From NCBI RefSeq assembly GCF_002157855.1, contig NZ_CP020880.1:3472001-3536000 (forward strand): a stretch of DNA of 64,000 bases. The letters run 5' to 3'. Of this stretch, positions 22,387-62,672 are shown in pieces (position 1 is the first letter of the stretch; every line of letters starts with the position of its first letter). This stretch comes from Sutcliffiella horikoshii (lineage in GTDB: Bacteria; Bacillota; Bacilli; Bacillales; Bacillaceae_I). The notes below the pieces were generated by a model that saw nothing but the letters and a program-made list of their open reading frames with translations, was not told the DNA's origin and made no database searches. The translations under genes and the position numbers were made by a program.

Positions 22387-22517
22387 CCGCTGTTGATTTC
22401 CGCAAATGGCTTCGCTTTCCGCGGGTGGAAGGGACAGGTGAGACCCCAGAAGCGTTGTGAGGAGGCTCACGGACCGCCCGCAGGCAAGGCGAAGCGCCTG
22501 GAACGGAAATCAACGGG
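22387..22517. repeat. RE1, palindromic intergenic element
   Basis: 131 bp. Terminal inverted repeat ttgatttccg / cggaaatcaa (10 bp, perfect). Core gtgagacccc ... gaggaggctcac. Lies 36 bp beyond the cold-shock gene terminator. First of nine related copies in the window. Confidence 0.85.
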
Positions 22518-22554
22518 ATCTCCACTCTCTTATCTTTTAAAAAACAAAAAAAAA

Positions 22555-22577
22555 GACCCTCCAGATGGAGAGCCTTT
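22555..22577 (-). terminator. Intrinsic terminator of the cold-shock gene
   Basis: Stem gaccctcc / ggagagcc with a 4-nt loop, then nine T on the minus strand. Confidence 0.85.
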
Positions 22578-22597
22578 TTCTCAACTTTATGTCAAAA

Positions 22598-22795
22598 TTA
22601 CTTTTGAACGTTAGTTGCTTGAGGTCCACGAGCGCCTTGCTCGATTTCGAAAGTTACTGTTTGACCTTCTTCTAAAGATTTGAAACCTTCGCCTTGAATA
22701 GCGGAGAAATGTACGAATACATCGTCTTGTCCGTCTACTTCGATGAAACCGAAACCTTTTTCAGCGTTGAACCATTTTACTTTACCTTCTAACAT
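22598..22795 (-). CDS. cspB: CspB-type cold-shock protein
   Basis: 65 residues from ATG 22795 (gtaggagg upstream); the longer frame adds an unrelated N-terminus. One cold-shock domain: [17 protein letters not shown] (RNP1) and [10 protein letters not shown] (RNP2). It is closest to B. subtilis CspB. It binds single-stranded RNA and melts structures that block translation in the cold. A 15-nt hairpin sits just before its ribosome site (22812-22826). Confidence 0.93.
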
Positions 22796-23261
22796 TATGT
22801 TTCCTCCTACAGTGGAACTTTTCCACAATTGTATTACCATTCTTGCTCTGCATAATCTTTCAAGACGAAAAACATTGAAGTAAATTCCTTCTATCAGCCT
22901 TACCGAACAAAAACAATTAACTTAATCATAGAGGTTATATATCAAAAAATCAAGTTTTATTTGGTTTTGCTAGTAACTTCCATTAGAAAAGTGTACTTTG
23001 TTACGGGTGAAGACATACAAGATTTGCTGCAACGATGGTGATTTTCTGTAGTAGTGTACCCATTTCTCAACTTTTTATAAACCTATATTTCAGAAATTTT
23101 TTCTATATACCGCTCCTTTATAGTTAAAGTATGTGGTCATTGGAAAATACTTTTTAAAAAATATACCATTTAGTACTTTTCTTTTTTCAATTGTTTTTGT
23201 AAGATAGTACAATATTCAACAACAATAGACAAATGTATTTTAGGGGAGGACACTGGACACC
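22796..23261. promoter_or_regulatory. Divergent regulatory region: csp 5' leader and symporter promoter
   Basis: About 466 bp without a gene. Cold-shock genes usually carry a long 5' leader, and a perfect 6-bp stem with 3-nt loop (gtggaa ctt ttccac, 22812-22826) lies 3 nt upstream of the csp Shine-Dalgarno. The right half should hold the symporter promoter. No known riboswitch was recognised. Confidence 0.5.
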
Positions 23262-24422
23262 ATGAGAAAATTCGGACTTTTACCAAGAATTATCCTTGCC
23301 ATTTTATTAGGGGTAACTGTTGGAAGTTTTGCACCTGAATGGTTCGTTAAAATATTTGTTACGTTTAACGAGATCTTCGGAAACTTTTTAGGATTTGCAA
23401 TTCCATTAATTATTATTGCATTTATTGCGCCTGGTATAGGGGAAATTGGAAAAGGAGCAGGGAAGTTTCTTGGCTTGACTGCTTCCATCGCCTATCTGTC
23501 TACTATTGCAGCAGGCGTCTTAGCCTATTTCGCTGCAAGTACGTTATACCCGTCCATATTAAAGAACGCTAGCCTGACAGGAGCAATGGAAAACCCGGAA
23601 GAAGCATTACTAAAGCCTTTCTTAGAACTTGAAATTCCAGCACCCTTTGAGGTGATGACTGCACTTATTATTGCATTTACACTTGGACTTGGAATGTCCG
23701 CAATCAAAGGGGAAACATTAAAAATAGCTATGATCGAGTTTAGAAGCATTATTGAACTTGTCATTTCCAAAGTAATTATTCCGCTTTTACCTATTCATAT
23801 TCTTGGTATATTCGCTAACATGACATACGGTGGGCAAGTTCAAACGATTATCAATGTATTTGCAAAAGTATTTGTATTGATCATTTTATTACATCTAATC
23901 ATGTTAATCATTCAATATTCCGTAAGCGGTGCTATGTCTAGAAAGAATCCTTTTGCCATGCTTAAATCTATGATGGCTGCCTATTTTACAGCCCTTGGAA
24001 CTCAATCTTCCGCTTCGACCATTCCAGTTACCCTTGAACGTACTAAGAAGATGGGGGTAAGAGAAAAGACAGCAGATTTTACCGTTCCGTTACTGGCAAA
24101 CATTCATTTGTCAGGTAGTACAATAACAATTGTTTCGTGCGCGATGGCAATTATGTTTATCAATGGAATGGATTATTCCATATTCATAGTACTTCCATTT
24201 ATTATGATGCTCGGTGTTACGATGATAGCAGCCCCTGGCGTACCTGGCGGGGCTGTAATGGCTGCCATCGGTCTGTTACAGACAATGCTTGGATTTGATG
24301 CAACGATGGTATCCTTGATGATTGCTCTTTATCTTGCTCAAGATAGTTTTGGAACAGCATGTAATGTTACGGGTGACGGTGCCATTGCTAACGCTGTTGA
24401 CAGACTTACTGCATCTAAATAA
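23262..24422 (+). CDS. Dicarboxylate/amino acid:cation symporter (DAACS family)
   Basis: 386 residues, eight or so membrane segments plus the two re-entrant hairpins of the glutamate-transporter fold. The first hairpin motif is TQSSASTIPVTL (family SSSATLP), and later NVTGDGAIANAVD corresponds to the TM8 substrate-binding region. Family members import glutamate, aspartate or C4-dicarboxylates with Na+ or H+; the exact substrate cannot be read. RBS ggggagg, followed by a strong terminator. Monocistronic. Confidence 0.88.
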   Translation: MRKFGLLPRIILAILLGVTVGSFAPEWFVKIFVTFNEIFGNFLGFAIPLIIIAFIAPGIGEIGKGAGKFLGLTASIAYLSTIAAGVLAYFAASTLYPSILKNASLTGAMENPEEALLKPFLELEIPAPFEVMTALIIAFTLGLGMSAIKGETLKIAMIEFRSIIELVISKVIIPLLPIHILGIFANMTYGGQVQTIINVFAKVFVLIILLHLIMLIIQYSVSGAMSRKNPFAMLKSMMAAYFTALGTQSSASTIPVTLERTKKMGVREKTADFTVPLLANIHLSGSTITIVSCAMAIMFINGMDYSIFIVLPFIMMLGVTMIAAPGVPGGAVMAAIGLLQTMLGFDATMVSLMIALYLAQDSFGTACNVTGDGAIANAVDRLTASK

Positions 24423-24428
24423 TTTAGA

Positions 24429-24471
24429 AAAAGGTGGCGCCCAATTACTTCAATTCTGGCGCCACCTTTTT
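24429..24471 (+). terminator. Intrinsic terminator of the symporter gene
   Basis: A 13-bp perfect stem (aaaaggtggcgcc / ggcgccacctttt) followed by seven T; A-rich on the other strand, so it may also serve the convergent small gene. Confidence 0.9.
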
Positions 24472-24484
24472 TTGTACAGAATAT

Positions 24485-24670
24485 TTATTTTAGCGCACAA
24501 GCTACTCTATCGTAGCCAAATTGCTCTAAGAATTCGTTATAGGCTTCTATTTTACCAAGGATGATGTCATGCTCTAAATCTCCTTGATTAGTCGCCTCCA
24601 TCTCCTTGCAATACTCCTTTATCCTTGATTCCACATAAGAAATAATCGCTGTTTCATTAAAAGAAGTCAT
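24485..24670 (-). CDS. Small hypothetical protein, 61 residues
   Basis: Acidic, helical (TAIISYVESRIKEYCKEM, KIEAYNEFLEQFGYD). The gtgaggtga site lies 6 nt before ATG, and the gene shares the symporter terminator in convergent layout. No family recognised. Good ribosome site and ordinary codon use support a real gene. Confidence 0.65.
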   Translation of the reverse strand: MTSFNETAIISYVESRIKEYCKEMEATNQGDLEHDIILGKIEAYNEFLEQFGYDRVACALK

Positions 24671-24778
24671 TCCCTATCACCTCACTTATTGATAGTAGAT
24701 AAATACCCTCCTTCTAAATACAACAAACAACAGCCAGCACATCCATTCTTACAAAATTTTTATCTGATTGGTTAATCA

Positions 24779-24906
24779 CCGCTGTTCCTTTCCGCAAATG
24801 GCTTCGCTTTCCTAGGGGCGGTGCTTGAGCCTCCTCACTTAGCTGCGGGGTCTCAAGCTACCGCTATCTCCCTCAGGAGTCTCCGCCATTTGCTCCAATC
24901 CACAGC
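24779..24906. repeat. RE2, palindromic intergenic element
   Basis: 128 bp, reverse orientation relative to RE1. Ends gctgttcc / ccacagc; core ttgagcctcctcac ... ggggtctcaa. It faces RE3 across an 88-bp spacer. Confidence 0.8.
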
Positions 24907-24994
24907 TTAAAATTACATAAACGATACGGTAATGCATTTTAAGTTAATACAGTTAGATCCCTTTTACAAACCCTTCGCTGAATGATGTCACTTT

Positions 24995-25124
24995 GTTGAT
25001 TGGAGTGGAAGGCGCGCAGACGCCCGCGGGAGGAAGGGACAGGTGAGACCCCGGAAGGCGAAGCCTGAGGAGGCTCACGGACCGCCCGCAGGCAAGCGAA
25101 GCGCCTGGAACGGAAATCAACGGG
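24995..25124. repeat. RE3, palindromic intergenic element
   Basis: 130 bp, same orientation as RE1, 26 bp beyond the sspH terminator. Apical stem aggc-gaa-gcct is perfect. With its left flank (gaatgatgtcac) it is nearly identical to RE6. Confidence 0.85.
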
Positions 25125-25149
25125 CTTAGATAATTTCTTAACTAAAAAG

Positions 25150-25167
25150 AGACTCAATTCTGAGTCC
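25150..25167 (-). terminator. Intrinsic terminator of sspH
   Basis: Stem gactca / tgagtc with a 4-nt loop, then CTCTTTTTAG on the minus strand. Confidence 0.75.
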
Positions 25168-25175
25168 CATTGTGG

Positions 25176-25361
25176 TTATTCTCCTAATTCAATTAAGTCG
25201 GAAACAGCAACTTGTGTACGTTCTTCTCCCGGACCGCGAAGATGAATTGTCGCAGTTTTTCCATCTTCACTTAAAGAGTCAATCCACACCTTTGTTCCTT
25301 CAAAGGTCACCTCTATTGTTGCGGAAGAGGATAGTATTTGTCTTGCACGTGTTTCATCCAT
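25176..25361 (-). CDS. sspH: H-type small acid-soluble spore protein
   Basis: 61 residues from ATG 25361 (ggGAG 8 nt upstream; a GTG 9 bp earlier is possible). The pattern MDETRARQILSSSATIEV, VWIDSLSED and ATIHLRGPGEE matches the SspH family, a minor spore protein made in the forespore under sigma-G. It has no DNA-binding motif of alpha/beta SASPs. It is divergent from mstX-yugO and followed by its own terminator and element RE3. Confidence 0.88.
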   Translation of the reverse strand: MDETRARQILSSSATIEVTFEGTKVWIDSLSEDGKTATIHLRGPGEERTQVAVSDLIELGE

Positions 25362-25493
25362 TCTCGTCACTCCCTACTCCATTATTCATTCATCACATGA
25401 TTCATACTTATTCTTCCAATTGCAGGCCATTTTATCCATTTGAAGTTTAAGTTTCAAGGTATTTTGTCAACAATGTAAGAAGAGGTGAATGAG

Positions 25494-25742
25494 ATGAAGT
25501 TAAGGAAGGAAGAAAAAGAACAACTGAGCGAAGCCATTGATCAGATGAATGAAAGTCTAGACAGGTTTATTGAATTTTATAATGAGTCAGAAGACGACAA
25601 ACCTATTATTTCATTCAATGATGAGGTAATACAGCTGATAGAAGCAGGAAAACAAAAATATGGGGAAGAAGCATTAACACAAAAGATTAATTCCATAGTG
25701 AAAGAAGTACTCTCTTTTATTTCCGCTGAGGATGAACGGTAG
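25494..25742 (+). CDS. mstX: Mistic-like protein upstream of YugO
   Basis: 82 residues. LRKEEKEQLSEAIDQMNESLDRFIEFYNESEDDKP is easily aligned with B. subtilis Mistic (MstX), and the stop codon directly abuts the yugO ATG, as in B. subtilis. Mistic is an unusual membrane-associating helical bundle that promotes channel insertion and biofilm potassium signalling. This copy lacks the first about 28 residues of the 110-residue B. subtilis form and matches the short natural homologues. Start ATG 25494 has agaggtga 7 nt upstream; GTG 25485 is also possible. Confidence 0.88.
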   Translation: MKLRKEEKEQLSEAIDQMNESLDRFIEFYNESEDDKPIISFNDEVIQLIEAGKQKYGEEALTQKINSIVKEVLSFISAEDER

Positions 25743-26753
25743 ATGGATAGAATCAAGGAACAGACTTCCCTCATTTTCAGGTTTGTACATTGGCCTTTAA
25801 TAGCAAGGATATTAGTCATTATTTTTGTCATAAATATTACTTTCGGATTTCTCATTCATTACATAGAACCAGCTGAATTCCCCTCTATTTTTGATGGAAT
25901 ATGGTGGGCGATTGTCACTACCGCAACTTTAGGCTATGGAGATTATGTTCCGGTTACTGTAACCGGAAGATCGTTAGCTATTATTCTCATATTATTTGGC
26001 ACAGGTTTTGTCACTACATATTTTGTATCACTGGCGGCTAGCGCCATCGCAACACAAAATGATTATTTGGAGGGCAAAGTGGATTATCGAGGATCTGAAC
26101 ATATTATCGTCATTGGTTGGAATGAACGGGTAAGAGAGACGTTACGGCAAATCAATTCTATGAGCAATAAACCACTATCTATCGTTTTAATTGATTCAAC
26201 ACTTGAGAAGAACCCCCTACATGATCAAAACGTACATTTTATTAAAGGAAACCCCTGTTATGATCAAACATTGCTTTCGGCCAATGTAAAGAGTGCCGGA
26301 TTTGTTGTCATTTCGGCGGATCAAAGCAAGGATGAAGTTCAAGCAGACATGAACTCTGTGTTAACGCTGCTTGCTGTAAAAGGGTTAAATCCAGATGTGT
26401 ATACAATCGCGGAAATCTTGACGTCTACACAAGTGATAAATGCTCAGCGTGCCGGAGCGGACGAAGTGATTCAAACCAATATGTTTACTAGTTATGTGAT
26501 GACTAACAGTATGATGTCAAATGGTATGTCCAATACATTGTTAACGATGTTAGATCAACTTAAGGGAAGCAAACTAAAGTATCTTGAGGTGGAAAAAGAT
26601 ATGATAGGAACAACATTTGAAAAATTGAGTAACCAGATGCTTCAGAAGAAAATCCTTCTCATCGGGATAAAAAGAAGAGGGGACACCATGGTCAACCCTC
26701 CTCTATACACGTTAATTCAAGCTGATGACTGTCTGCTTGTCATTAAAGATTAA
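25743..26753 (+). CDS. yugO: YugO-type potassium channel
   Basis: 336 residues. Two membrane segments (about 18-39 and 73-96) around a pore helix and the selectivity filter TLGYG at 62-66. The cytoplasmic RCK part starts at HIIVIGWNERVRETL (TrkA-N, residues 115 onward) and ends with a TrkA-C-like domain. In B. subtilis YugO releases K+ in electrical signalling of biofilms. It starts immediately after the mstX stop, so it depends on translational coupling. Converges on yugN with a 4-bp overlap. Confidence 0.93.
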   Translation: MDRIKEQTSLIFRFVHWPLIARILVIIFVINITFGFLIHYIEPAEFPSIFDGIWWAIVTTATLGYGDYVPVTVTGRSLAIILILFGTGFVTTYFVSLAASAIATQNDYLEGKVDYRGSEHIIVIGWNERVRETLRQINSMSNKPLSIVLIDSTLEKNPLHDQNVHFIKGNPCYDQTLLSANVKSAGFVVISADQSKDEVQADMNSVLTLLAVKGLNPDVYTIAEILTSTQVINAQRAGADEVIQTNMFTSYVMTNSMMSNGMSNTLLTMLDQLKGSKLKYLEVEKDMIGTTFEKLSNQMLQKKILLIGIKRRGDTMVNPPLYTLIQADDCLLVIKD

Positions 26754-27157
26754 TCTCTGCCAAGCACTGCTTCTAATTCATGTACAAGTGTATGACCTAG
26801 TTCTATAAATTCTTTTGGAAAAGTGGCATCTGGATCTTCTGGTTCTGAGAATTGGTCAAATGATGCCGTTCTGTTCCATACATGTACATTGTCATCTATT
26901 CCAATCTGGTATTTGTGTGAGAGCAAGAACGGTCTGCCAAGCTCCACTGTGGTCCCTTGTGAATCCAATTGGCCGTCCACAGATTGGAATGGGACTCTCA
27001 AGAATTGATATCCGACTTCATCATCTATTTTGTAGTCGAAATAGCCGTGGTCATAGTCCCAGTTTCCTCCGATGGAATATCCGATGGCTTTAAGTTCCTG
27101 CTCTAATTTATACAATTGAAACTCCGCACCTTCGATTTTTGAAGGAATAGGAATCAT
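26750..27157 (-). CDS. yugN: YugN-like protein
   Basis: 135 residues from ATG 27157 (aaggaggg upstream; the frame extends further without a ribosome site). Soluble alpha/beta protein. Segments LEQELKAIGYSIGGNWDYDHGYFDYKID and YQFLRVPF match the YugN family seen at the same place in B. subtilis. Function unknown. It overlaps the 3' end of yugO in convergent layout. Confidence 0.88.
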   Translation of the reverse strand: MIPIPSKIEGAEFQLYKLEQELKAIGYSIGGNWDYDHGYFDYKIDDEVGYQFLRVPFQSVDGQLDSQGTTVELGRPFLLSHKYQIGIDDNVHVWNRTASFDQFSEPEDPDATFPKEFIELGHTLVHELEAVLGRD

Positions 27158-27214
27158 AGCAATCCCTCCTTTTATATGGGTAGGTTTCCCCATGGAGGTG
27201 TTTTCATGCATATC

Positions 27215-27263
27215 AAAAAGGGATAGTTCTGGACCTGATGGTCGTAGAACTATCCCTTTTTAG
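27215..27263. terminator. Bidirectional intrinsic terminator downstream of pgi
   Basis: A 16-bp perfect stem (aaaaagggatagttct / agaactatcccttttt) with a 15-nt loop. It can end pgi transcripts on the minus strand and plus-strand read-through from yugO. Confidence 0.85.
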
Positions 27264-27266
27264 ACG

Positions 27267-27453
27267 CCGCTGTTGCTTTCCGCAAATGGCTTCGCTTTCC
27301 TAGGGGCGGTGCTTGAGCCTCCTCACTTCGTTGCGGTGTCTCAAGCTACCGCTATCTCCCTCAGGACAAGGAAGGCTCCGGCAGCGATACATCGCACGAA
27401 GAAAATGCGTAGCATTTTCGAGGAGTCTTCGCCTTTTGCTCCAAGCAACAGCT
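27267..27453. repeat. RE4, enlarged palindromic element
   Basis: 187 bp, same orientation as RE2. It contains an extra segment of about 58 bp compared with RE2 (about 27366-27423), which holds a perfect hairpin gaaaatgc-gta-gcattttc. Outer ends gctgttgc / gcaacagc are perfect inverted repeats. Confidence 0.85.
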
Positions 27454-27482
27454 ATGGTGTCCAAAATCCAATATTTATTTGT

Positions 27483-28832
27483 TTATTTTAATCGTTTTTC
27501 TAGTTCTGCTTTGACTTCCTCGAATCCAGGTTTGCCAAGAAGTGCGAACATGTTTACTTTGTATGCTTCCACTCCCGGTTGGTCAAATGGATTTACTCCA
27601 AGAAGGTAACCGCTCATAGCGCATGCTTTTTCAAAGAAGTAAACAAGGTAACCGAATGTGTATGCGTCCATTGCAGGGATGTTAACCACAAGGTTTGGCA
27701 CTCCTCCATCTGTGTGGGCAAGGAGTGTTCCTTCATATGCTTTTGTGTTTACAAAATCAACTGTTTCCCCAGCAAGGTAGTTTAGGCCATCCAAATCAGC
27801 CGCTTCTTCCTCTACTGTCAACTCATGACGAGGAGTGTCTACTTTGATAATTGTTTCGAAAAGATCTCGACGCCCTTCTTGTACATATTGACCCATTGAA
27901 TGAAGGTCTGTTGAGAAGTTGGCAGACGCTGGGAAGATACCTTTTTGGTCTTTCCCTTCGCTCTCACCGAATAGTTGCTTCCACCATTCAGAGAAGTATT
28001 GAAGCCCTGGTTCATAGTTGATCAGCATTTCAATCGTTTTACCTTTGTTGTATAGGACATTACGAACGGCTGCGTATTGATATGCAGGATTTTCTTCCAA
28101 CTCAGATGTAGAGAAGTCACGGCTTGCATCTGCAGCACCTTTCATCATTGCTTCGATATCCGCTCCTGAAACCGCGATCGGCAATAAACCTACTGCCGTA
28201 AGGACGGAATAGCGTCCTCCTACATCATCAGGAATAATAAAGGACTCATAGCCTTCTTCCGTTGCCAGAGTTTTTAAAGCTCCACGTGCTTTGTCTGTTG
28301 TAGCGTAAATACGTTTACGGGCTTCTTCCTTCCCGTATTTTTCTTCTAAAATTTTACGGAAGATACGGAAAGCCAATGCCGGCTCTGTCGTAGTACCAGA
28401 TTTAGAAATTACGTTGATTGAGAAGTCTTTTCCTTCTAGAAGGTCCATCAAATCTCTCATGTAAGTTGAACTGATGTTATTCCCAACAAACACAACCTGA
28501 GGAGTTTTTCGTTGCTCCTTTGTTAGAGCATTGTAGAAAGAATGATTTAACATTTCCAAGGCAGCTCGTGCACCAAGGTATGATCCGCCGATACCTACTA
28601 CTAACAAAATGTCTGAATCGTTTTTGATTTTCTCTGCACTTTTTACAATTCGTGCAAACTCTTCTTTGTCGTAATCTGTAGGCAGGTCAATCCAACCAAG
28701 GTAATCATTTCCCGCGCCAGTTTTTTCATGTAATGAATGATGGGCAACCTTTACCGCATCACGTAAGTATGTAATTTCATGTTCGCCGAAAAAAGATAAT
28801 GCCTTTTTATAATCAAAGCGAATATGTGTCAT
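27483..28832 (-). CDS. pgi: Glucose-6-phosphate isomerase
   Basis: 449 residues from ATG 28832 (tggagg upstream). PGI signatures: [16 protein letters not shown] near residue 75, [16 protein letters not shown] near 135, and [20 protein letters not shown] near 280. Catalytic Glu and His lie in the usual places. It interconverts glucose 6-phosphate and fructose 6-phosphate in glycolysis. Same locus as in B. subtilis. Element RE4 lies between its stop and its terminator, so RE4 is in the pgi 3' untranslated region. Confidence 0.95.
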
Positions 28833-28973
28833 ATATAATAACCTCCATAAAAACATATTTGCATGCCAATTTTCACTTTACATAATACTGTCCGATAATT
28901 CAAGGATTCCCCTCCCCTGTAAGCGGATACAAATAAAATATTTCATTTCCACTCGCTTACTCTCACAAGAAAA

Positions 28974-28997
28974 CGGCTATACATAGTGTATAACCGC
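28974..28997 (-). terminator. Intrinsic terminator of the small membrane-protein gene
   Basis: Stem cggctataca / tgtataaccg with a 3-nt loop, then TTTTC on the minus strand. Confidence 0.75.
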
Positions 28998-29023
28998 TCT
29001 CCTTTTTCGCTTTGTCTTCACCA

Positions 29024-29272
29024 TCAAGTCGGTTCGACTTCGATTTCTTCATTTTCCTTTTTTGCCACTACAATTCGGATATATTCCCGTGGCTTAAATG
29101 GTTGGATGACATTCGAGCTTCCCTGTTGATTAGATCCAATAAGCACAATGGAGGGATCTCCATTGTAATACTGGTCCACATAATCTCTTTTTTGCTCAAC
29201 GCTCAACCACCATGCACCAGCAAATAAAGTAGAAAATATGGATAGTGCAACAGCCGCTTTTCTTTTCACCAT
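29024..29272 (-). CDS. Small signal-anchored protein of unknown function
   Basis: 82 residues from ATG 29272 (aggtgg 8 nt upstream). One N-terminal hydrophobic segment (AAVALSIFSTLFAGAWWL) follows a basic start, and the rest is extracytoplasmic, ending in an acidic tail ENEEIEVEPT. No cleavage site or family is evident. Position between pgi and mrp corresponds to the yugM neighbourhood in B. subtilis, but similarity to YugM was not established. Confidence 0.6.
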   Translation of the reverse strand: MVKRKAAVALSIFSTLFAGAWWLSVEQKRDYVDQYYNGDPSIVLIGSNQQGSSNVIQPFKPREYIRIVVAKKENEEIEVEPT

Positions 29273-29612
29273 ATCTACCACCACCTATGACTAGGATGGC
29301 TAAAATATCGACATTTTATGCAGTTGGAAAAATATTTTTTAGACCTGTTTTGACTAGTTTCTATCATATTTAATATGCAGGACAAAATCGGTCCATACTA
29401 ACAAACAGTAAGGATGCAAGCGGTTATGATTTAGTATATAATTTGATTTAGTAATTTTTCTATACAAATAATAATTCCTTTTTACACGTAACAAGGCAGG
29501 TACCAACCGGATAGAGTGACACTATCTTAGAGAAAAATGGTATTTGGCGTTGTTTTCTTATGTTTAGAAGGGAAGACTATTATTTATAGAAGAAACAGAG
29601 GAGGTTTGTGTC
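29273..29612. promoter_or_regulatory. Divergent promoter region upstream of the mrp operon
   Basis: About 340 bp without a gene. A tataat hexamer near 29434-29439 lacks a convincing -35. A small hairpin (gatag/ctatc) lies near 29511-29526, about 90 bp before mrpA. No known riboswitch class was recognised. Confidence 0.4.
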
Positions 29613-32024: not shown

Positions 32025-32433
32025 TTTAATCTTACAAACCACCACTACCCTTTTAACGTTTATCATCTTAATCTTCTCGGTCTATCTTTTCTTTGCCGGA
32101 CACTACACTCCAGGCGGAGGATTTATCGGAGGGTTGATGACAGCTGCTGCTCTGGTGCTACTTTTACTTGCTTTTGACAAAAAAACCGTACAAAAAGCAC
32201 TACCATTCAACTATCTATCGATTGCAGCTGTGGGATTAATGATATCCATCATTACAGGGGTCATTGCTCTTTTCTTTGATGTACCTTTTCTAACTCATAC
32301 CTTTGGTTATGTGGAGTTGCCCTTACTCGGGGAAACTGCACTAACTTCTACTTTACCGTTTGATTTGGGTGTATATTTAGTAGTGGTAGGGATTGCAATG
32401 ACCATTATTCAAACGATAGGAGAGAGTGAATAA
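32011..32433 (+). CDS. mrpB: MrpB
   Basis: 140 residues, four membrane segments. GHYTPGGGFIGGLMTAAALVL is the MrpB signature with its conserved Pro-Gly-Gly-Gly-Phe. Start GTG has ggagg 8 nt upstream and lies within the mrpA end. Essential structural subunit of the antiporter. Confidence 0.95.
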   Translation: MKVNDLILQTTTTLLTFIILIFSVYLFFAGHYTPGGGFIGGLMTAAALVLLLLAFDKKTVQKALPFNYLSIAAVGLMISIITGVIALFFDVPFLTHTFGYVELPLLGETALTSTLPFDLGVYLVVVGIAMTIIQTIGESE

Positions 32434-37205: not shown

Positions 37206-37234
37206 AAAGAAATTTTAGTTGTTTGGTAATCCGC

Positions 37235-37346
37235 AGCTGTTCCTTTCCGCAAATGGCTTTGCTTGAGCGTTCTCACTTCGTTGTGGGGTCTCAATCTACC
37301 GTTACTCCCCCGCTGGAGTCTCCGCCATTTGCTCCAATCCACAGCT
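37235..37346. repeat. RE5, shortened palindromic element
   Basis: 112 bp, same orientation as RE2 and RE4, lacking part of the ttcctaggggcggtgc region. Ends agctgt / acagct. Faces RE6 across 72 bp. Confidence 0.8.
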
Positions 37347-37418
37347 AGAAATGGCGTAAGAGTAATGTTATTGGTTTATCAGTAACTCGTTGGATACTTA
37401 GATGAATGAAGTCACCTT

Positions 37419-37545
37419 GTTGATTGGAGTGGAAGGCGCGTAGACGCCTCGGGAGGAAGGGACAGGTGAGACACCACAGGCTGCAAGCCGAGGAGGCTCA
37501 CGGACCGCCCTCAGGCAAGCGAAGCGCTTGGAACGGAGATCAACA
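37419..37545. repeat. RE6, palindromic intergenic element
   Basis: 127 bp, same orientation as RE1 and RE3, 33 bp beyond the yugI terminator. Apical stem ggct-gca-agcc is perfect but different in sequence from that of RE3 (compensatory changes). Confidence 0.85.
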
Positions 37546-37576
37546 GTGTAGCATCTACCTCCTGATTTCCATAAAA

Positions 37577-38677: not shown

Positions 38678-38762
38678 AGAATTTTCTAAAAATCAGGTTT
38701 TAAAAATAAAAATCATGGGAATACTTATACCATCAAGGCTTTCTAGTATTCCCCCTTTTGTT

Positions 38763-38797
38763 AGGACCAAATCCACGCTGGATTTGGTCCCTTTTTT
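38763..38797. terminator. Bidirectional intrinsic terminator
   Basis: An 11-bp perfect stem (ggaccaaatcc / ggatttggtcc), loop acgct, then six T; between the convergent XRE and yugH genes. Confidence 0.9.
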
Positions 38798-43082: not shown

Positions 43083-43108
43083 GAGGATATAAAGATGAAG
43101 AATACCTA

Positions 43109-43236
43109 GCTGATGATTGGAGCAAAAGGCGAAGACTTCAGCGGGGAAGTAGCGACATTTGATGAGACCTCGCAACGAAGTGATGAGGCTCAAGGTCGCC
43201 CCGCGGAAAGCGAAGCCGTTTGCGGAAATTATCAGC
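43109..43236. repeat. RE7, palindromic intergenic element
   Basis: 128 bp, orientation as RE1. Ends gctgatgatt / aattatcagc (one mismatch). Core gatgagacctcgcaacgaag ... gatgaggctcaa. It lies 20 bp beyond the phosphatase-gene terminator. Confidence 0.8.
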
Positions 43237-43255
43237 GGTTTCACAGAAAAAATAA

Positions 43256-49198: not shown

Positions 49199-49432
49199 GT
49201 AACCAAAGTGATTTTTGATTACCTCCAGTGTGAAAACTTATCGTGATGGGGTAACCAAAGTGTGCCTTTGATTACCCCTAGTATTATAATTTACCCTGGT
49301 GGGGTAACCATAGGGTGCCTTTGATTACCCCTGGTATTAAAAATTTCCCTGGTGGGGGAACCATAGCTTGCCTTTGATTACCCCTAGTGTGAAAATTTCA
49401 CGTGATAAGGTAACCAAAGTGTGCTTAAAAAT
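49199..49432. repeat. 53-bp tandem repeat array of hairpins
   Basis: Five units, stepping 52-53 bp (anchor gtaacc/ggaacc at 49199, 49251, 49304, 49357, 49410). Each full unit holds an imperfect hairpin: ggggtaaccaaag, short loop, ctttgattacccc. Lies between the convergent alkD-like and thioesterase genes. No unique spacers. Confidence 0.88.
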
Positions 49433-52715: not shown

Positions 52716-52791
52716 ATAGCAAGGTGACAACTCTCCAATCCCATTTAAATTACATATAGTACTGTACTGATGAAATAATGGAGGGTTTGTC

Positions 52792-53187
52792 ATGCATTAC
52801 TATCTACGCCCTTTCCACCGGCCTGTCTATTATCCGCGAAATGTTTATTTTCCAGTATATGCGCATTCACTGCCAAGAACATATTTCCGAGTTTACCCTG
52901 AAGTGGATCCAACCGTTTTTACTGAATCTGCAGAATCCATGCAGCAATTGATGAAAGAGGCCAGCATCATTTTACAAAAACTTTCTGATTCTAAAGAGTT
53001 CGCTTCTGAAGTAATGAAGGCTGCACAGCAAGGAAATAAAGAAAAGGTTTCCCAGCTTTTACTGTCTACAGGGGTGCATTCTGGAGTCAAGGTGGATTTT
53101 AATCCCGATGGAATTAATTTAAATATGACGTCGGAAATAGAAGGAAAAGATTGCTGCCATCTAACCATCAGTTTGAGATGGGGATGA
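52792..53187 (+). CDS. Tyr/Pro-rich hypothetical protein, possibly spore-coat associated
   Basis: 131 residues. The first 40 residues are rich in Tyr, Pro, His and Arg (HYYLRPFHRPVYYPRNVYF), as in several coat proteins. Then a helical segment (residues 45-95) and a C-terminal beta part (GVKVDFNPDGINLNM, CCHLTISLRW). RBS ggaggg. Tyr-rich ends are common in coat proteins that become cross-linked, so a coat role is a guess. Own bidirectional terminator. Confidence 0.7.
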   Translation: MHYYLRPFHRPVYYPRNVYFPVYAHSLPRTYFRVYPEVDPTVFTESAESMQQLMKEASIILQKLSDSKEFASEVMKAAQQGNKEKVSQLLLSTGVHSGVKVDFNPDGINLNMTSEIEGKDCCHLTISLRWG

Positions 53188-53190
53188 CAA

Positions 53191-53224
53191 AAAGGATTAC
53201 AGGGTGGCCTGTAATCCTTTTTGT
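53191..53224. terminator. Bidirectional terminator at the end of the beta-glucan operon
   Basis: A 13-bp perfect stem (aaaggattacagg / cctgtaatccttt) with a 4-nt loop and flanking A and T runs. Confidence 0.9.
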
Positions 53225-53233
53225 TGTTATTGA

Positions 53234-56188: not shown

Positions 56189-56254
56189 ATTTCTTCCTCC
56201 TCATCCTTTTGTTATTTTCTTCCTTAGAGTTAGCCCATCACCTCCTCAAAGTAA

Positions 56255-57589
56255 TTAATTGAATACAACGGTCGTAATAGATCTTGCAGGAATAGCTAAG
56301 TCCATTCCTTCCCCTTCAAGCTCTATCGACGTTTCTTTATTTGCTTCTGTTTCATTTAAAAGAACAACTGCAATACTCTCATCTTCATTTCTGAAAGCGA
56401 CAAGTGAAACATCTGCAAGCTCTGTTTCATGAGCGATTCTCTTCGCACCCGGTTTGATGAACTTACTAAAGTGTCCAATATAATAGTAAGAACTGTTAAA
56501 ATGGACCTCGTCTTTTTCTGTATCCGCTATGATTGGCGCGTCGCAATAGTTACCTACATGGTTTGGTCCGCCTTGTATATCAAGCACAAGGTTCCAATCA
56601 ATGAACCCTTCCAGCCAGTTGTTCATATCCCCGATGATGTTTCTTGCATAGCGTTCTCCCGTATGCCATGCACCAAGCTTTACTCCACCTTCAATGCAGC
56701 CTTCTGTGAACAATAAATGCTTGTCTGGAAAGGCCTCATGGACTTTGGAGAGATTCTCAAACTCCTCTGAAACATACCAGTGGTTTCCTGTTCCCCATAC
56801 ATATTTAGCTGCTTCCGGATCAGATAACACGATTGTCGCCCTCTCCACGATCACATCACGGTTGTGATCCCAAATGATGATTTTTTTATCGCCAAGACCG
56901 TTCTTTTCCATGATTGGACCTAAGAAATTTTTTACAAAATCTCGTTCTTCCTCTGCTGTATAAATGCAAGAATCCCACACCTGTGTCGCTTCCGGTTCGT
57001 TTTGTACCGAAATCCCCCAGATCGGAATTCCTTCTGCTTCCATTGCCTTGATATACTTCACATAATAATTGGCCCATGCTTCTCTGTACTTTTCTATTAG
57101 TTTGCCACCATGATTCATCTCACCGTTTGTTTTCATCCATGCAGGCGGACTCCAAGGTGATGCAAGAATTGTCAATGTTTCATTCGCTTCTGACTCTGCT
57201 GCTTTGATAAATGGAAGAACATATTTTTGCTCTCGTTCGATGTTGAAGGAGTCCAAGTTCACATCCCCATCTTCCACGTATGTATAGTTACCCAGCGCAA
57301 AATCACTGCTGTGGATTGCTGTGCGGCCAAGGTTATACCCAAGACCTGTTTTTTTATTAAAATAGGCGCTAATGATGGCATCTTTGTTTGCTTCTGACAG
57401 CTGTGACCAGTTAAAAGCAGCCGCTTCTGTAAAAGCTCCGCCAAAACCAAGCCATTCTTGATGTTGTTTTTCTGGAAAAAGCTTTAAAGAGACAACTTTG
57501 TCACTTTTACGTTTCCATTCGATGTTGTTTACTCGTTCCCACGGTCTTCCTGTCTCTTTCTTCGTTTGAAATACTGTTATATTTCGCAT
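56255..57589 (-). CDS. GH30-family glycosidase (glucosylceramidase/beta-1,6-glucanase type)
   Basis: 444 residues from ATG 57589 (tggagg upstream). (beta/alpha)8 plus side beta-domain: WLGFGGAFTEAAAFNW at the start, acid/base Glu198 in WGISVQNEPEA, nucleophile Glu296 in LLFTEGCIEGG. No signal peptide, so it acts in the cytosol. GH30 includes beta-1,6-glucanases and beta-glucosidases; together with the neighbouring laminarinase, cleavage of beta-1,6 branches of laminarin-type oligosaccharides is likely. The IS3 element lies 109 bp upstream and may have cut it off from the operon promoter. Confidence 0.92.
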   Translation of the reverse strand: MRNITVFQTKKETGRPWERVNNIEWKRKSDKVVSLKLFPEKQHQEWLGFGGAFTEAAAFNWSQLSEANKDAIISAYFNKKTGLGYNLGRTAIHSSDFALGNYTYVEDGDVNLDSFNIEREQKYVLPFIKAAESEANETLTILASPWSPPAWMKTNGEMNHGGKLIEKYREAWANYYVKYIKAMEAEGIPIWGISVQNEPEATQVWDSCIYTAEEERDFVKNFLGPIMEKNGLGDKKIIIWDHNRDVIVERATIVLSDPEAAKYVWGTGNHWYVSEEFENLSKVHEAFPDKHLLFTEGCIEGGVKLGAWHTGERYARNIIGDMNNWLEGFIDWNLVLDIQGGPNHVGNYCDAPIIADTEKDEVHFNSSYYYIGHFSKFIKPGAKRIAHETELADVSLVAFRNEDESIAVVLLNETEANKETSIELEGEGMDLAIPARSITTVVFN

Positions 57590-57608
57590 AAAATGACCTC
57601 CATTTTTT

Positions 57609-57698
57609 GAGTTCGTGCCGAAACGGTGCAAGTTGATGCCTAAATCGCATGAGTTCGTGCCGAAACGGGGCAAGTTGATGCCTAAATCGCATGAGTTC
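57609..57698. repeat. 42-bp (2 x 21-bp) tandem repeats, left part
   Basis: Units start at 57609, 57651 and 57693 (gagttcgtgccgaaacgg..). Each 42-bp unit is itself two related 21-bp halves (agttcgtgcc.., agttgatgcc..). The array continues on the other side of the IS3 element. Confidence 0.88.
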
Positions 57699-57777
57699 TG
57701 GATGTAGTATAAAAAGTGGACACACCTATTGGCGTCATGATTTAATCATAATCAACAATAAAAAGGACGTGTTAATC

Positions 57778-58083
57778 ATGGCAAAATACAAATCCTACTC
57801 CCCAGAATTCAAGGAATTTGTAGTGAAACAAATTGAATTAGACGGACATAAAATAGTCGATGTGAGCCAAAACCTAGATATTCCTTATGATACCCTACAA
57901 AAATGGTTAAAGAAGTACCGGGATCAGAAGAAAGCAGAAGAAAAAAATGCTCAAAATCAACTACTAACAGCTACAGAATACAGAGAAATGTTTGAAGCAG
58001 AAAGAAAAAGTAAACTTGAATTAGAAGAAGAGTTAACGATCTTAAAAAAGGCCATGCACATCTTCACGCAAGAAAAGAAGTAA
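57778..58083 (+). CDS. IS3-family OrfA (HTH part of transposase)
   Basis: 101 residues from ATG 57778 (aaaagga upstream). A helix-turn-helix (YSPEFKEFVVKQIELDGHKI, VSQNLDIPYDTLQKWLKKYR) followed by a leucine-zipper-like coiled coil (FEAERKSKLELEEELTILKKA). Its last codons contain A AAA AAG (58044-58050), the canonical -1 slippery heptamer in the right phase. Confidence 0.93.
   Translation: MAKYKSYSPEFKEFVVKQIELDGHKIVDVSQNLDIPYDTLQKWLKKYRDQKKAEEKNAQNQLLTATEYREMFEAERKSKLELEEELTILKKAMHIFTQEKK
58044..58050 (+). promoter_or_regulatory. Programmed -1 frameshift site of the IS3 element
   Basis: A_AAA_AAG read in the OrfA phase. After a -1 slip the frame continues without a stop through GHAHLHARKEVRF into OrfB, giving the fused transposase. 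Confidence 0.85.
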
Positions 58084-58124
58084 GGTTTGCGTTTATTCAT
58101 TCCCATCGGGATGAACACACTGTA

Positions 58125-58991
58125 GTGATGATGTGCAGAGCCCTTGGTGTGACTACATCTGGATACTATTTGTATGTGAAACGGTTAGAACGAGAAGAAA
58201 CGGAACGAGAACAGTGGAGAAGGCAACTTGATGACCGTATCCGTTTTCATTTTTATGACAATCTAGAGACGTATGGAAGTGTGAGAATACATCAAAAGTT
58301 AGTAGACTATGACGATTTTAATGTATCAGCTAGTACAGTAGCCAAGCGAATGAAGGTACTAGGACTGTATGCCACTCCGCCTAAGAGTTTCATTGCCACT
58401 ACAGATTCTGATCACTCTAACCGAACGTTTAAAAACAACTTGAAACAAGCGTTTAACCCAGAGGCCCCAAATATGGTTTGGGTCACTGATATCACGTATA
58501 TTTCTACCATGGAAGGTTTCATCTATTTCAATCCAATTCTAGACTTATTTGGACGAAAAGTTATTAGTTATTCAATGTGCGACCGAATGGATCGTAGTTT
58601 ACCTCTTCGAGCGTTAAAGGAGGCAATAAAATTAAGGGAACCGAAAAAAGGTTGGATCCACCATTCAGATAGAGGGTCGCAGTACTGTTCCAAAGATTAC
58701 ATCGACGTCCTAGAAGATGCCAAAGCAAAGATCAGTATGAGTAGGAAAGCCACTCCATACGACAATGCTTGTGCGGAATCATTCTTTGCCTCCATGAAAA
58801 AAGAATACTTGAATAAATTTCGTTTCACCACAAAAGCAGAGGCTATGGCAGCTGTGCAATTTTATGTGGAGTTTTACAACAGAAAAAGAATCCATTCAAC
58901 CCTAGAATACGCCACACCAAATGAGTACGAAATGGCGTATGAAATGGCACAACAAAAGGATGCCAATTTGGGTCGTAAAACCTCTGCATAA
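58125..58991 (+). CDS. IS3-family OrfB (DDE integrase part of transposase)
   Basis: 288 residues from the first ATG; the fused form starts in OrfA. HTH_21 domain (FHFYDNLETYGSVRIHQKL) and rve integrase core with Asp in VWVTDITYIST, Asp in HHSDRGSQYCS and Glu in ACAESFFASMKKEYL. Frame is -1 relative to OrfA. Complete C-terminus (FYNRKRIHSTLEYATPNEYE). Confidence 0.95.
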   Translation: MMMCRALGVTTSGYYLYVKRLEREETEREQWRRQLDDRIRFHFYDNLETYGSVRIHQKLVDYDDFNVSASTVAKRMKVLGLYATPPKSFIATTDSDHSNRTFKNNLKQAFNPEAPNMVWVTDITYISTMEGFIYFNPILDLFGRKVISYSMCDRMDRSLPLRALKEAIKLREPKKGWIHHSDRGSQYCSKDYIDVLEDAKAKISMSRKATPYDNACAESFFASMKKEYLNKFRFTTKAEAMAAVQFYVEFYNRKRIHSTLEYATPNEYEMAYEMAQQKDANLGRKTSA

Positions 58992-59118
58992 AGAAACAAT
59001 GTGAACTTTATTGTTTGTTTATGTAGAGGCGTGCAAGCGTAGTGGAACACGGAGCGCGGAAGGAAAAAAGTACGCCAATTCAAGGCATATAAGTGTCCAT
59101 TTTCTTGACAGAAGTCCA

Positions 59119-59182
59119 GTTCGTGCCGAAACGGACCAAGTTGATGCCAAAACGCCCCGAGTTCGTGCCAAAACCAATTTCC
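59119..59182. repeat. 21-bp tandem repeats, right part
   Basis: Three 21-bp units (agttcgtgcc.., agttgatgcc.., agttcgtgcc..) following the IS3 right end and its gttc duplication; continuation of the array at 57609-57698. Confidence 0.85.
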
Positions 59183-59246
59183 CTTTCAAAAAAACCACTC
59201 AATCCTGAGTGGCTCTTTTTGTAGATTTAATGATAAAAGATACCTA

Positions 59247-59371
59247 GTTAATCGCAGTGAAAGGCGCGCAGACGCCCGCGGGAGGGAGGGACAAGTGAGA
59301 CCCCGCAACGGAGTGAGGAGGCTCCCGGACCGCCCGCAGGCAAGCGAAGCGCCTGGAACGGAGATTAACAG
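59247..59371. repeat. RE8, palindromic intergenic element
   Basis: 125 bp, orientation as RE1, beginning only 10 bp beyond the GH1 stop. Ends gttaatc / gattaac. Core gtgagaccccgcaacggag ... gaggaggctcc. Confidence 0.85.
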
Positions 59372-59381
59372 TTAAATGTAA

Positions 59382-60713
59382 CTATATACTTCTTGAACTA
59401 ATAATCTCCTGGTATCTCTTCGCACTATCTTTCAAGATTCTTTCTTGCGTTTCAAAATCCACATATACCATGCCGAATCGCTTGTCATAACCAAACGCCC
59501 ATTCGAAGTTATCAAATAAAGACCACAAGAAGTACCCTGCGATATTCATGCCTTCTTCATTCAACTCAGCAACAGCTGTAATATGCTTCTCCACATAATC
59601 TTTACGCTCATGGTCATGTACACAACCGTCCACGACTACATCGTCATAAGCCGCACCATTTTCTGTGATGTAGATTGGTAGATCGGTATAGTTCTCACGA
59701 AGTCCTCTGATCAATTCCTTGAACTCCTGTGGGGAAATATCCCAACCCATTCCCGTTTTCGGATAATCAGAATATGCACCTTTGTTTAGCATCGGAGAAC
59801 TTGGATCAAACTCGACCAGTGATCTTGCGTAATAGTTGATTCCAAAGAAATCACATGGAGTTGAAATCGATTCCAAGTCTCCTTCTTGAATGAAATCAAA
59901 GTTATGAATCAATTTGGAAAACAGGTTGATCATATCCATTGGATAAGAACCTTTGAAGATTGGATCAAGGAACCATCGGTTAGCATATCCATCAGAATTA
60001 TTCCTTGCAATTTGGTCATTGATTGAATCTGTTGGAGCATAAGAAGGCGCTAGATTTAGTGTAATTCCGATTGGTGTAGAAGATCCGATTTTATCTTTTA
60101 ACAATTTAACCGCTTCACCATGTGAAAGTAGAATATGGTGTGCTGCTTTTACGCCTTCTTCAAGGTTTGTATGTCCAGGAGCATGATGTCCAAGGTGGTA
60201 GCTCAAGAAGCTTGCACACCATGGTTCATTGTGTGTGATCCAAGAGTAAACTAAGTTATCTAACTCTTCATAACACTTCTCTGCAAACTCAAGGAACCAT
60301 GAAACGGACTCGCGGTTAACCCATCCGCCTTGCTCATGAGCCCACATTGGAAGATCCCAGTGGTATAACGTAACCATTGGCTTGATGCCTGCATCGAGCA
60401 GCCCGTGAATTAACTTTTTATAAAAGTCCATTCCTTCTTGGTTATACACGCCTTGTTGTGGGAAAATTCTCGGCCAAGCGATAGATAGTCGGTAAGAATC
60501 CACACCAAGACTTTTGATAATATTGATATCTTCTTCATAACGGTGGTAATGGTCACACGCAACATCTCCTGTGTCTCCGTTCCACACTTTCCCTGGTGTT
60601 CTTGAAAAAGTATCCCAGATGGAAGGAGTTCGACCTCCTTCATCGTGTGCACCTTCTATTTGGTAGGAGGATGTTGCTGTTCCAAAAATGAAATCCTTTG
60701 AAAAATTTAACAT
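59382..60713 (-). CDS. GH1 beta-glucosidase
   Basis: 443 residues from ATG 60713 (agaggtga upstream). N-terminal GH1 signature FGTATSSYQIEGA, acid/base Glu163 in THNEPWC, nucleophile Glu351 in YITENGAA. No signal peptide and no phospho-sugar site evident, which agrees with an ABC importer instead of a PTS. It would release glucose from imported beta-glucan oligosaccharides. It follows the permease genes after 40 bp. Confidence 0.95.
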   Translation of the reverse strand: MLNFSKDFIFGTATSSYQIEGAHDEGGRTPSIWDTFSRTPGKVWNGDTGDVACDHYHRYEEDINIIKSLGVDSYRLSIAWPRIFPQQGVYNQEGMDFYKKLIHGLLDAGIKPMVTLYHWDLPMWAHEQGGWVNRESVSWFLEFAEKCYEELDNLVYSWITHNEPWCASFLSYHLGHHAPGHTNLEEGVKAAHHILLSHGEAVKLLKDKIGSSTPIGITLNLAPSYAPTDSINDQIARNNSDGYANRWFLDPIFKGSYPMDMINLFSKLIHNFDFIQEGDLESISTPCDFFGINYYARSLVEFDPSSPMLNKGAYSDYPKTGMGWDISPQEFKELIRGLRENYTDLPIYITENGAAYDDVVVDGCVHDHERKDYVEKHITAVAELNEEGMNIAGYFLWSLFDNFEWAFGYDKRFGMVYVDFETQERILKDSAKRYQEIISSRSI

Positions 60714-60753
60714 GCCGTTCACCTCTTCTATTAATCTAGTTGCTTATTTTTAC

Positions 60754-61584
60754 CTATTCTTTTACAGAACCTGCTGAAATACTGCTAATGATGTATTTGG
60801 ATAGGAACAAGAAGATGATCATGATTGGTACAACAGATATCGCGATGCCTAAATACATAGAACCCAGATTTTCTGCTACCTTTGATCCTCTTAAGAACCC
60901 CATCATGACTGGTAACGTGTACTTTTCCGGACTGAAAAGCACTACCAATGGAACAATGTAGTTATTCCAAGATCCGATAAAGGTGAAGATACCCATTGTA
61001 GCTACTGCCGGCATCATGATAGGTAAGCCTATCGTATGGAAAATTCTTATTTCACTTGCTCCATCCATTCTTGCAGCTTCCAATAGAGTAGGATGCAGGG
61101 TGGAGACAAGAAATTGTCGTAGGAAGAAAACAACGAATGGACTTGCTATAGCCGGAATGATTAATGGGATATAACTGTCCAATGTACCTAATGTTTTGTT
61201 TAAGTCATAGAATCCGATTAGACCTAGTTGGCCAGGTACCATCATCAAAATTAAAACGGATACGAATAGAAAGTTTTTACCTTTGAAGTTATAGATTGCA
61301 AACCCATATGCCGTCAGAGCGGAAAAGTATGAGCTTAATACTGTTACACAAATTGCGATAAATACACTGTTTCCGAATCCTTGCCAAATATTAACGAAAC
61401 TTATCAATCTTTCATAGTTTTCCATGATTGCGCTACCTGGTAAAAGGGTGAACCCTTTTTGCAGAATTTCCGAATTTGATCTCGTAGCGTTGATAATCAT
61501 CATATAAAATGGGATAAAGCTAATAATCGCAAGCAATATTAAAAGCCCGTAGAGGATGCTCTTTACAAAAGTCCTTTTATTCAC
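60754..61584 (-). CDS. Sugar ABC transporter permease, MalG type
   Basis: 276 residues, six membrane segments. The EAA loop EAARMDGASEIRIFHTIGLP contacts the ATPase. CUT1 family, partner of the MalF-type permease 12 bp upstream. No ATPase gene is in the window; a shared MsmX/MalK-type ATPase is likely to serve it, as in B. subtilis. Confidence 0.93.
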   Translation of the reverse strand: MNKRTFVKSILYGLLILLAIISFIPFYMMIINATRSNSEILQKGFTLLPGSAIMENYERLISFVNIWQGFGNSVFIAICVTVLSSYFSALTAYGFAIYNFKGKNFLFVSVLILMMVPGQLGLIGFYDLNKTLGTLDSYIPLIIPAIASPFVVFFLRQFLVSTLHPTLLEAARMDGASEIRIFHTIGLPIMMPAVATMGIFTFIGSWNNYIVPLVVLFSPEKYTLPVMMGFLRGSKVAENLGSMYLGIAISVVPIMIIFLFLSKYIISSISAGSVKE

Positions 61585-61596
61585 ACTAACTCACTC

Positions 61597-62481
61597 CTAA
61601 TCCATGCTTTTGCGGTACATAGCTTTAAATGTTGCAAACGAGAAGATTAACGTAATCAAGAATAATCCGTATGCGACCGCTGCGGCGTATCCATAGTTGT
61701 TAAATTTAAATGCCTGGTTGTACATATATAAAACCATTGTGTTTAAAGATCCTTGCGGTGCACCCATACCGTCTGTTAATAACATCGGCAATTCGAAAAT
61801 CTGCAATCCGCCAATTAAAGAAGTGATCATGATATATAACATAATTGGTTTTAACAATGGCAATGTAATATGGAACAATGTTTTCCAACGGTTCGCTCCA
61901 TCAATAAGTGCCGCTTCATAGTAATCCTTTGAAATACCTGAAATACCTGCCATTAAAACGATAAATGTATGTCCAAACCACATCCAAGCTCCGATAAGAG
62001 CAACAGACCATTTCGCTGTAGTAGGATCGTTAAGCCAGTTGATTGGCTGAGATATGATTCCTAAATCCATTAATAAATGATTCAATGTTCCATGATGCCA
62101 ACCTAGTAAAATACCAAACAATAAAGCTACAGATGCGATAGTTATTAAGTTTGGAAGATACAGTACTGCTCGGAAAAAGCCTAGTCCTTTCATTTTCATG
62201 CGAATATCTGAGAACAAAATGGCAAGCCCCAATGCTATAAGCATTTGAAAGAAGAAGTTTACTCCCCAAATGTACCAAGTGTTAAAGAATGCTTGTAAAA
62301 AGTAGCTGTCAGTAAGTAGTCTTGTATAGTTAGCCAATCCAATAACTTCAGGAACACCCATACCGGAATAGTTTGTGAAACTATAATAGAAGGTTAATAG
62401 TATTGGATAGATGCTAAATATCCCAAAGACGATGAAAAATGGTAGGATGAACAGATAGCCATAATGATCTTTTTTCTTCAA
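61597..62481 (-). CDS. Sugar ABC transporter permease, MalF type
   Basis: 294 residues, six membrane segments, EAA loop EAALIDGANRWKTLFHITLP. It starts after element RE9 and a hairpin that separate it from the binding-protein gene. With the MalG-type protein it forms the CUT1 channel for beta-gluco-oligosaccharides by context. Confidence 0.93.
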   Translation of the reverse strand: MKKKDHYGYLFILPFFIVFGIFSIYPILLTFYYSFTNYSGMGVPEVIGLANYTRLLTDSYFLQAFFNTWYIWGVNFFFQMLIALGLAILFSDIRMKMKGLGFFRAVLYLPNLITIASVALLFGILLGWHHGTLNHLLMDLGIISQPINWLNDPTTAKWSVALIGAWMWFGHTFIVLMAGISGISKDYYEAALIDGANRWKTLFHITLPLLKPIMLYIMITSLIGGLQIFELPMLLTDGMGAPQGSLNTMVLYMYNQAFKFNNYGYAAAVAYGLFLITLIFSFATFKAMYRKSMD

Positions 62482-62545
62482 ATCAATCGCCTTCTTTCTT
62501 ATAACTCTGTTAATAAAAGAGATGATGTGTTATATAAATAACCTA

Positions 62546-62672
62546 GCTGTGGATTGGAGCACATGGCGTAGACTCCGGCGGGAGATAGCGGTAGGTTGAG
62601 ACCCCGCAACGAAGTGAGGAGGCTCAAGCACACGCCCCGTGGAAAGCGAAGCCAAGTGCGCAAATCCACAGC
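62546..62672. repeat. RE9, palindromic element inside the ABC operon
   Basis: 127 bp. Perfect inverted ends gctgtggatt / aatccacagc. Core gttgagaccccgcaacgaag ... gaggaggctcaa. Lies between the binding-protein and permease genes, same orientation as RE1. Confidence 0.87.

Follow-up and report, generated by a model that had tools for sequence, protein, structure and literature searches.

Intergenic repeats of Sutcliffiella horikoshii as members of a large and seemingly nameless family of foldable elements in many Bacillus-like bacteria

Results

Repeats in the window and the unit they form

The window analysed here is a stretch of 64,000 nucleotides of the Sutcliffiella horikoshii chromosome (NCBI RefSeq assembly GCF_002157855.1, contig NZ_CP020880.1, positions 3,472,001 to 3,536,000), in which an initial annotation had described nine palindromic intergenic repeats, RE1 to RE9. 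Positions are those of the window unless stated otherwise; G000 denotes the genome that holds the window, other G numbers the genomes compared with it, and L numbers fetched loci. A repeat search of the window recovered all nine copies at the coordinates given for them, on both strands, and a profile search (E up to 1e-3) returned RE1–RE9 only, with 42 invariant columns in their alignment. Their intergenic position was likewise confirmed, as no window match overlapped a gene predicted with my own script by more than 20 nt. When the search was extended to 60 spaced 20-kb stretches plus the window, 139 profile matches were obtained, some of them pieces of one element, and two of these, both outside the window, overlapped a gene by more than 20 nt. 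The copies had also been described as foldable, and the eight that were folded singly (RE4 was omitted owing to its length) gave z-scores of -2.4 to -6.0, with 0 to 2 of 200 shuffles per copy folding equally well.

The nine sequences are thus real, but they are not nine separate elements. Read in the orientation TGAGACCCC..GAGGAGGCTCA, the repeats are hairpins of ~130 nt and come in two related types: type A comprises RE3, RE6, and RE8, type B comprises RE2, RE4, RE5, RE7, and RE9, and RE1 is a fusion. The unit in Sutcliffiella is a ~420 bp composite made of hairpin B on the minus strand, a linker, and hairpin A on the plus strand, and RE2+RE3 and RE5+RE6 are two such composites, while RE4, RE7, RE8, and RE9 are single arms. 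An alignment of these two with 12 composites from other parts of the genome showed conservation beyond the arms too, the consensus ends being about TTTAGTTGATTGGTTAATC for B and, for A, TATACTTTCTTATC with an A-run behind it. The features are as follows:

22365–22536, plus strand: RE1, an internally deleted composite in which the B outer arm is joined to the A core and outer arm (A profile positions 29–126); a terminator adjoins
24757–25144, plus strand: composite 1 (RE2, linker, RE3), conserved limits; ends next to an A-run (the T-tract of a minus-strand terminator)
24778–24907, minus strand: RE2, B arm of composite 1
24995–25124, plus strand: RE3, A arm of composite 1
25145–25170, minus strand: terminator-like hairpin of the right-hand minus-strand gene (by eye), with composite 1 directly downstream; hairpin present in most aligned relatives
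27266–27454, minus strand: RE4, single B arm that includes an additional ~57 bp block (about 27366–27422)
37213–37572, plus strand: composite 2 (RE5, linker, RE6), limits set by eye
37234–37348, minus strand: RE5, B arm of composite 2, shortened by a small deletion
37417–37547, plus strand: RE6, A arm of composite 2
43106–43238, plus strand: RE7, single B arm, oriented opposite to the composites
59245–59373, plus strand: RE8, single A arm
62543–62674, plus strand: RE9, single B arm, oriented opposite to the composites

Copies of composite 1 elsewhere in related genomes match to about 24750–25156, and the extra ~57 bp block of RE4 recurs in copies from G008, G009, and G012. The window also contains other tandem repeats at 8473–8665, 49214–49424, 57610–57708, and 59118–59174, with units of 52, 53, and 21 bp.

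Filled and empty sites behind terminators

Comparison with relatives revealed six loci with both filled and empty alleles, which supports the earlier suggestion of a non-autonomous mobile element. Three lie in L085: at the first, a ~420 bp composite is present in G000 and absent from all six relatives compared; at the second, the composite is shared by G000, G001, and G007 and absent from G004, G008, G009, and G012; the third is empty in G000 and G001, filled in G007, G008, G009, and G012, and reduced to a remnant in G004. Two more lie in L083, one being empty in G004 and G008, the other empty in G001 with remnants in G004 and G008. The sixth is the RE1 locus, which is empty in G001. Several insertions are private to single or few genomes. 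At the RE4 locus, a B arm is also found in 10 of 14 relatives, so some copies are old.

The insertion sites have a common setting. At all six polymorphic loci a terminator is the adjacent feature upstream on the B-sense strand (by eye), and the element starts within or just past its T-rich tract, the exact ends varying by a few bases from locus to locus. The same holds for a larger set of composites: 31 of 37 have a terminator-like site within 105 nt upstream compared with 8 of 37 at a control distance. An A-run follows 8–55 nt past the outer end of A in 51/68 vs. 4/68. Regions between divergent genes contain 3 of the 119 matches for which both neighbours are known, while 130 of 553 intergenic regions longer than 100 bp are of this kind. 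At about position 6820 of L085, G001, G007, and G008 carry a tandem array of AGAGAGAAGTCTTCAT units, which is missing from G000; a terminator-like site precedes it.

Composites follow the replication fork

The GC skew of G000 changes sign at the contig start and again between the stretches at 2.08 and 2.15 Mb, apart from a single stretch of opposite sign at 4.00 Mb; the chromosome arms are therefore known, with a terminus at ~2.1–2.15 Mb, and 78% of predicted genes (901/1155) are co-directional with replication. Orientation was then assayed on 68 A and 68 B copies scoring above 85 bits, pooled from the stretches, the window, and L001–L060, loci that had been chosen for matching the repeat, orientation playing no part. 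A composite was counted where two such arms lay on opposite strands in the order B(-) A(+) within 330 bp, and other arrangements were left out.

In every one of the 37 composites, the A strand runs opposite to the leading-strand gene direction (chance 1e-4 given the 78% gene bias). Eighteen of them lie in co-leading regions, 15 in convergent ones, one each in a co-lagging and a divergent region, and two lack a known neighbour on one side or both. In the convergent regions, 15/15 composites have the same fork orientation (chance 3e-5 at even odds). Composite orientation thus tracks the replication fork and not the direction of neighbouring genes, and the B-sense strand is accordingly the lagging-strand template. 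Counting all A copies, 61 were on the expected strand and 7 on the other, including 5/5 in co-lagging regions; the corresponding numbers for all B copies were 55 and 13. A strict A pattern was on the expected strand in 47 of 48 cases, the exception lying at 4.057 Mb. In G001, with chromosome arms assumed to be as in G000, this was so for 27 of 31 among the matches listed below 2.16 Mb (57 in all). Strict polarity has been shown for the composites of Sutcliffiella only.

Conserved pairing and loop types

The initial annotation had pointed to compensatory changes between the apical stems of RE3 and RE6 as a sign of selection on structure. This covariation holds across the family: among the 652 apical positions of 178 distinct loops, 521 are paired, whereas 1000 permutations gave a mean of 418 (sd 7.5) and at most 440. 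A second test used 48 copies from many genera, consisting of two from the window and 46 of 78 listed, which were hand-picked toward A-like and distant sequences. A hand-set structure of 36 pairs had 84.2% of its cells paired, against 74.6% (sd 0.5) in shuffles and 28–43% in slid versions of the structure, which are at a disadvantage as the structure was derived from the same 48 sequences. Double changes were seen at 25 pairs (18.9 in shuffles) and in 177 cells (60 in shuffles), and none of 500 shuffles reached the observed values for pairing or double changes, although kinship alone can beat shuffles and six inner pairs are invariant because the copies were selected on that pattern. RNAalifold returned poor structures for the A and B sets. 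Taken together, the permutations and the 36-pair test support selection on structure.

The loops were sorted by size; of the 178, 41 were neither triloops nor tetraloops and 13 lacked a stem, and these were left out. Tetraloops of the GNNA, GNAB, and CNNG classes are stable in DNA, and 38 of the 51 tetraloops belong to them: 15 are GNNA (third base a purine in 6 and a pyrimidine in 9), 11 GNAB, and 12 CNNG, and none is UNCG. Among the triloops, 54/73 are GNA, a type that forms very stable DNA minihairpins (Yoshizawa 1997, as cited in an excerpt of PMC7432603). The loop types favour single-stranded DNA, though not decisively. Considering the fork-following composites together with these loops, selection at the DNA level is at least as likely as a role of the structure in RNA stability.

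Spread of the family and its relation to named repeats

A wider scan for copies found the core pattern at 114 places in G000, or 179 when shorter loops were allowed, and at 1 to 208 places per genome among the 14 other genus members counted. Within the order, 192 of 397 genomes contained the core pattern, and the reversed pattern used as a control occurred in none; Bacillus, Priestia, Halobacillus, Oceanobacillus, Sporosarcina, Planococcus, and Sporolactobacillus are named among the matches listed. Across the class, 51 of 299 genomes carried an arm pattern. By eye, the constant arm frame GACTCC..GGGA / CCC..GGAAAGCG encloses three kinds of core, namely ACCCC..GAGGAGG, ATCCACT..AGTTAGCT, and ACCCTGGACTGA..GAGGGAAGCGGCT. 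Seven plasmid records gave partial matches, naming Priestia, Peribacillus, Bacillus, and Niallia, and a search of phages gave no matches to the repeat. The window repeats hence represent a large family of foldable elements, apparently one without a name, that occurs in many Bacillus-like bacteria. Elsewhere in G000, a B arm (L065:2878-3009; G000 306878-307009) lies between genes read as groES and groEL, which normally form one operon, and a cluster of arms (L120:17764-18422) lies between ParA-like and ParB-like genes near the chromosome origin.

The claim that the repeats belong to no named family stands at the Rfam gathering threshold, at which none of the window repeats matches, and needs qualifying below it. 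With a relaxed threshold, RE2 matched tsr24 (RF02577), a small RNA of Staphylococcus aureus, with 28.6 bits and an E value of 5e-5, the gathering score being 50. The arms GAGACTCC..GGGAG / CCCTAGGAAAGCGAAGCC and their pairing are held in common, whereas the match covers only model positions 129–204 of 238 and the apical part is unlike. An element from another genus had no Rfam match. The two Rfam matches of the window itself lie off the repeats and are cspA and the Bacillus small RNA ncr1241, the latter at 38732–38796.

Among structured intergenic repeats of Bacillus, bcr1 (147–167 bp), Bhal-1 (74 bp), and Bant-1 (72 bp) are comparable according to excerpts of PMC2267715, and the title of a work cited there ascribes mobile element characteristics to bcr1. 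The present repeat differs from these in size, and identity with Bhal-1 is possible. No description of it was found in the titles and abstract starts of open-licence literature on repeats, on its sequence words, or on tsr24, and short sequence words of the repeat retrieved only literature unrelated by title.

Discussion

The reading I favour, and consider somewhat more probable than its competitors combined, is that the repeats derive from a non-autonomous mobile family of Bacilli, some as copies and others as remnants, and that its composite inserts into the single-stranded lagging-strand template in an IS200/IS605-like manner. The template would be exposed at the fork, the T-tract of a terminator would serve as target, and an enzyme acting in trans would recognise single-stranded DNA by its folded ends and hairpins and move the element by one-strand cut-and-paste, by analogy with IS200/IS605 elements. 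The pairing of the hairpins would be kept because folding is needed for movement, and single A and B arms would mostly be decayed or rearranged composites. For IS608 and ISDra2, excerpts of PMC6006769 and PMC5371812 describe use of the lagging-strand template and an orientation that depends on the fork; Y1 enzymes belonging to this superfamily act on single-stranded DNA hairpins (PMC6006769). The repeat resembles IS200/IS605 elements and their non-autonomous derivatives in fork-linked orientation, the absence of a visible target duplication, a short target, and hairpins; it differs in having no internal transposase, arms of opposite sense, and hairpins of ~130 nt.

Several points weigh against this reading. 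In IS200/IS605 elements one strand shows both ends in the same form, which the opposite-sense hairpins of the repeat cannot do. CTTG and GNRA loops are stable in RNA as well. No target duplication was seen at the six loci, where the T-rich sequence could mask one of 1–4 nt. No clear polarity is seen in single B arms (18 vs. 13), and in other genera the core, single arms included, was on the expected strand in 42/57 (G348) and 33/42 (G203) with split points set by eye, a share close to the gene bias of G000. The rise in copy density toward the terminus was not significant (Spearman 0.20, p 0.13). The excess of G-T over A-C stem mismatches, 40 vs. 12 in A and 70 vs. 22 in B without helices P3/P3b and P6 (44 vs. 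16 and 73 vs. 31 with P6), is a hint that hinges on excluding helix P3 (P3 in A, P3b in B) as mis-registered, the counts being 61 vs. 131 and 132 vs. 76 when both are included. Finally, no mobilising enzyme was found at the Y1/RAYT loci or group II introns that were looked at. The initial annotation had proposed looking for a transposase with matching ends, and none was found in a search that covered the arms, not the ends, at Y1 genes and included neither an exhaustive search for autonomous copies nor a direct one for a partner insertion sequence; in the four G000 stretches inspected, A and B arms enclosed ordinary host genes only.

The strongest competitor, although an unlikely one, is a cellular RNA or DNA signal such as a transcript end, an mRNA stability element, or a replication or segregation mark, kept by selection and only occasionally mobile. 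The strongly conserved structure, the B arm retained by most relatives at the RE4 locus, the placement behind genes and rarely in divergent regions, the arm between groES and groEL, and the arms in common with tsr24 would all suit it, but a core count that varies from 1 to 208 within the genus, insertions private to one or few genomes, and a composite orientation that ignores gene direction would not. Rather less probable still is a REP-like element mobilised by a RAYT-type (TnpA_REP, Y1) transposase of the same genome. The repeat shares an intergenic position, many copies, and inverted hairpin pairs with REP, BIME, and REPIN sequences; G000 has one RAYT-like Y1_Tnp gene, the domain was matched in all 13 genus genomes searched (in G006 as a fragment with a stop), and the action of Y1 enzymes on hairpins mentioned above fits. 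Yet no copy adjoins the G000 gene, A and B profiles gave a single weak match at 30 Y1 loci, core and arm patterns, allowing for two mismatches at most, matched near 1 of 58, and 5 of 27 element-rich genomes, some of which are drafts, had no domain match while 22 did. The arms of ~130 nt also contrast with the 20–40 nt reported for REPs, and a different palindrome family, GGGGTCTGACCCC, adjoins the G000 gene (L158). A RAYT enzyme is consequently a weak candidate with no positive sign in its favour. The GGGGTCTGACCCC family, often with a T-run behind it, occupies 13 sites (26 strand matches) in a 1.26 Mb sample.

A SINE-like (short interspersed nuclear element) repeat copied via RNA by a reverse transcriptase acting in trans seems very unlikely. 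In its favour, 18 of 37 composites carry their own terminator-like end hairpin against 7 of 37 in the control (9 vs. 0 for the GGACCGGGC type), and G000 has five group II intron reverse transcriptase genes, all co-directional with replication. Against it, no terminator T-tract directly preceded any of the five intron copies in the upstream stretch viewed (by eye), one of these copies lying in the linker of a repeat; intron ends are unlike those of the element (by eye); and intron models had no match in the window or composite 1. The introns therefore show no sign of being the mobiliser. At L315, a group II intron is itself inserted in the apparent linker of a repeat composite. The least probable of these explanations is a classical miniature inverted-repeat transposable element (MITE) moved by a DDE transposase: by eye, the consensus ends include short matching termini, ATAAGAAA/TTTCTTAT, but the six loci lack a visible target duplication and the orientation is fixed relative to the fork.

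Going beyond insertion into the lagging-strand template by the Sutcliffiella composite, a broader idea is conceivable but doubtful: a class of elements across the Bacilli that would move as single-stranded DNA, land at terminator T-tracts on the lagging template, combine constant arms with exchangeable cores, each perhaps with its own enzyme, and count tsr24 as a staphylococcal relative.

Repeats of this kind fill many intergenic regions of well-studied bacteria and were nameless in the searches made here. The fixed fork orientation of the composites makes lagging-strand insertion testable from sequence alone, and a preference for sites behind terminators would account for the tolerance of so many copies. 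The likeness to tsr24 suggests that an annotated small RNA family of S. aureus may belong to a family of mobile elements.

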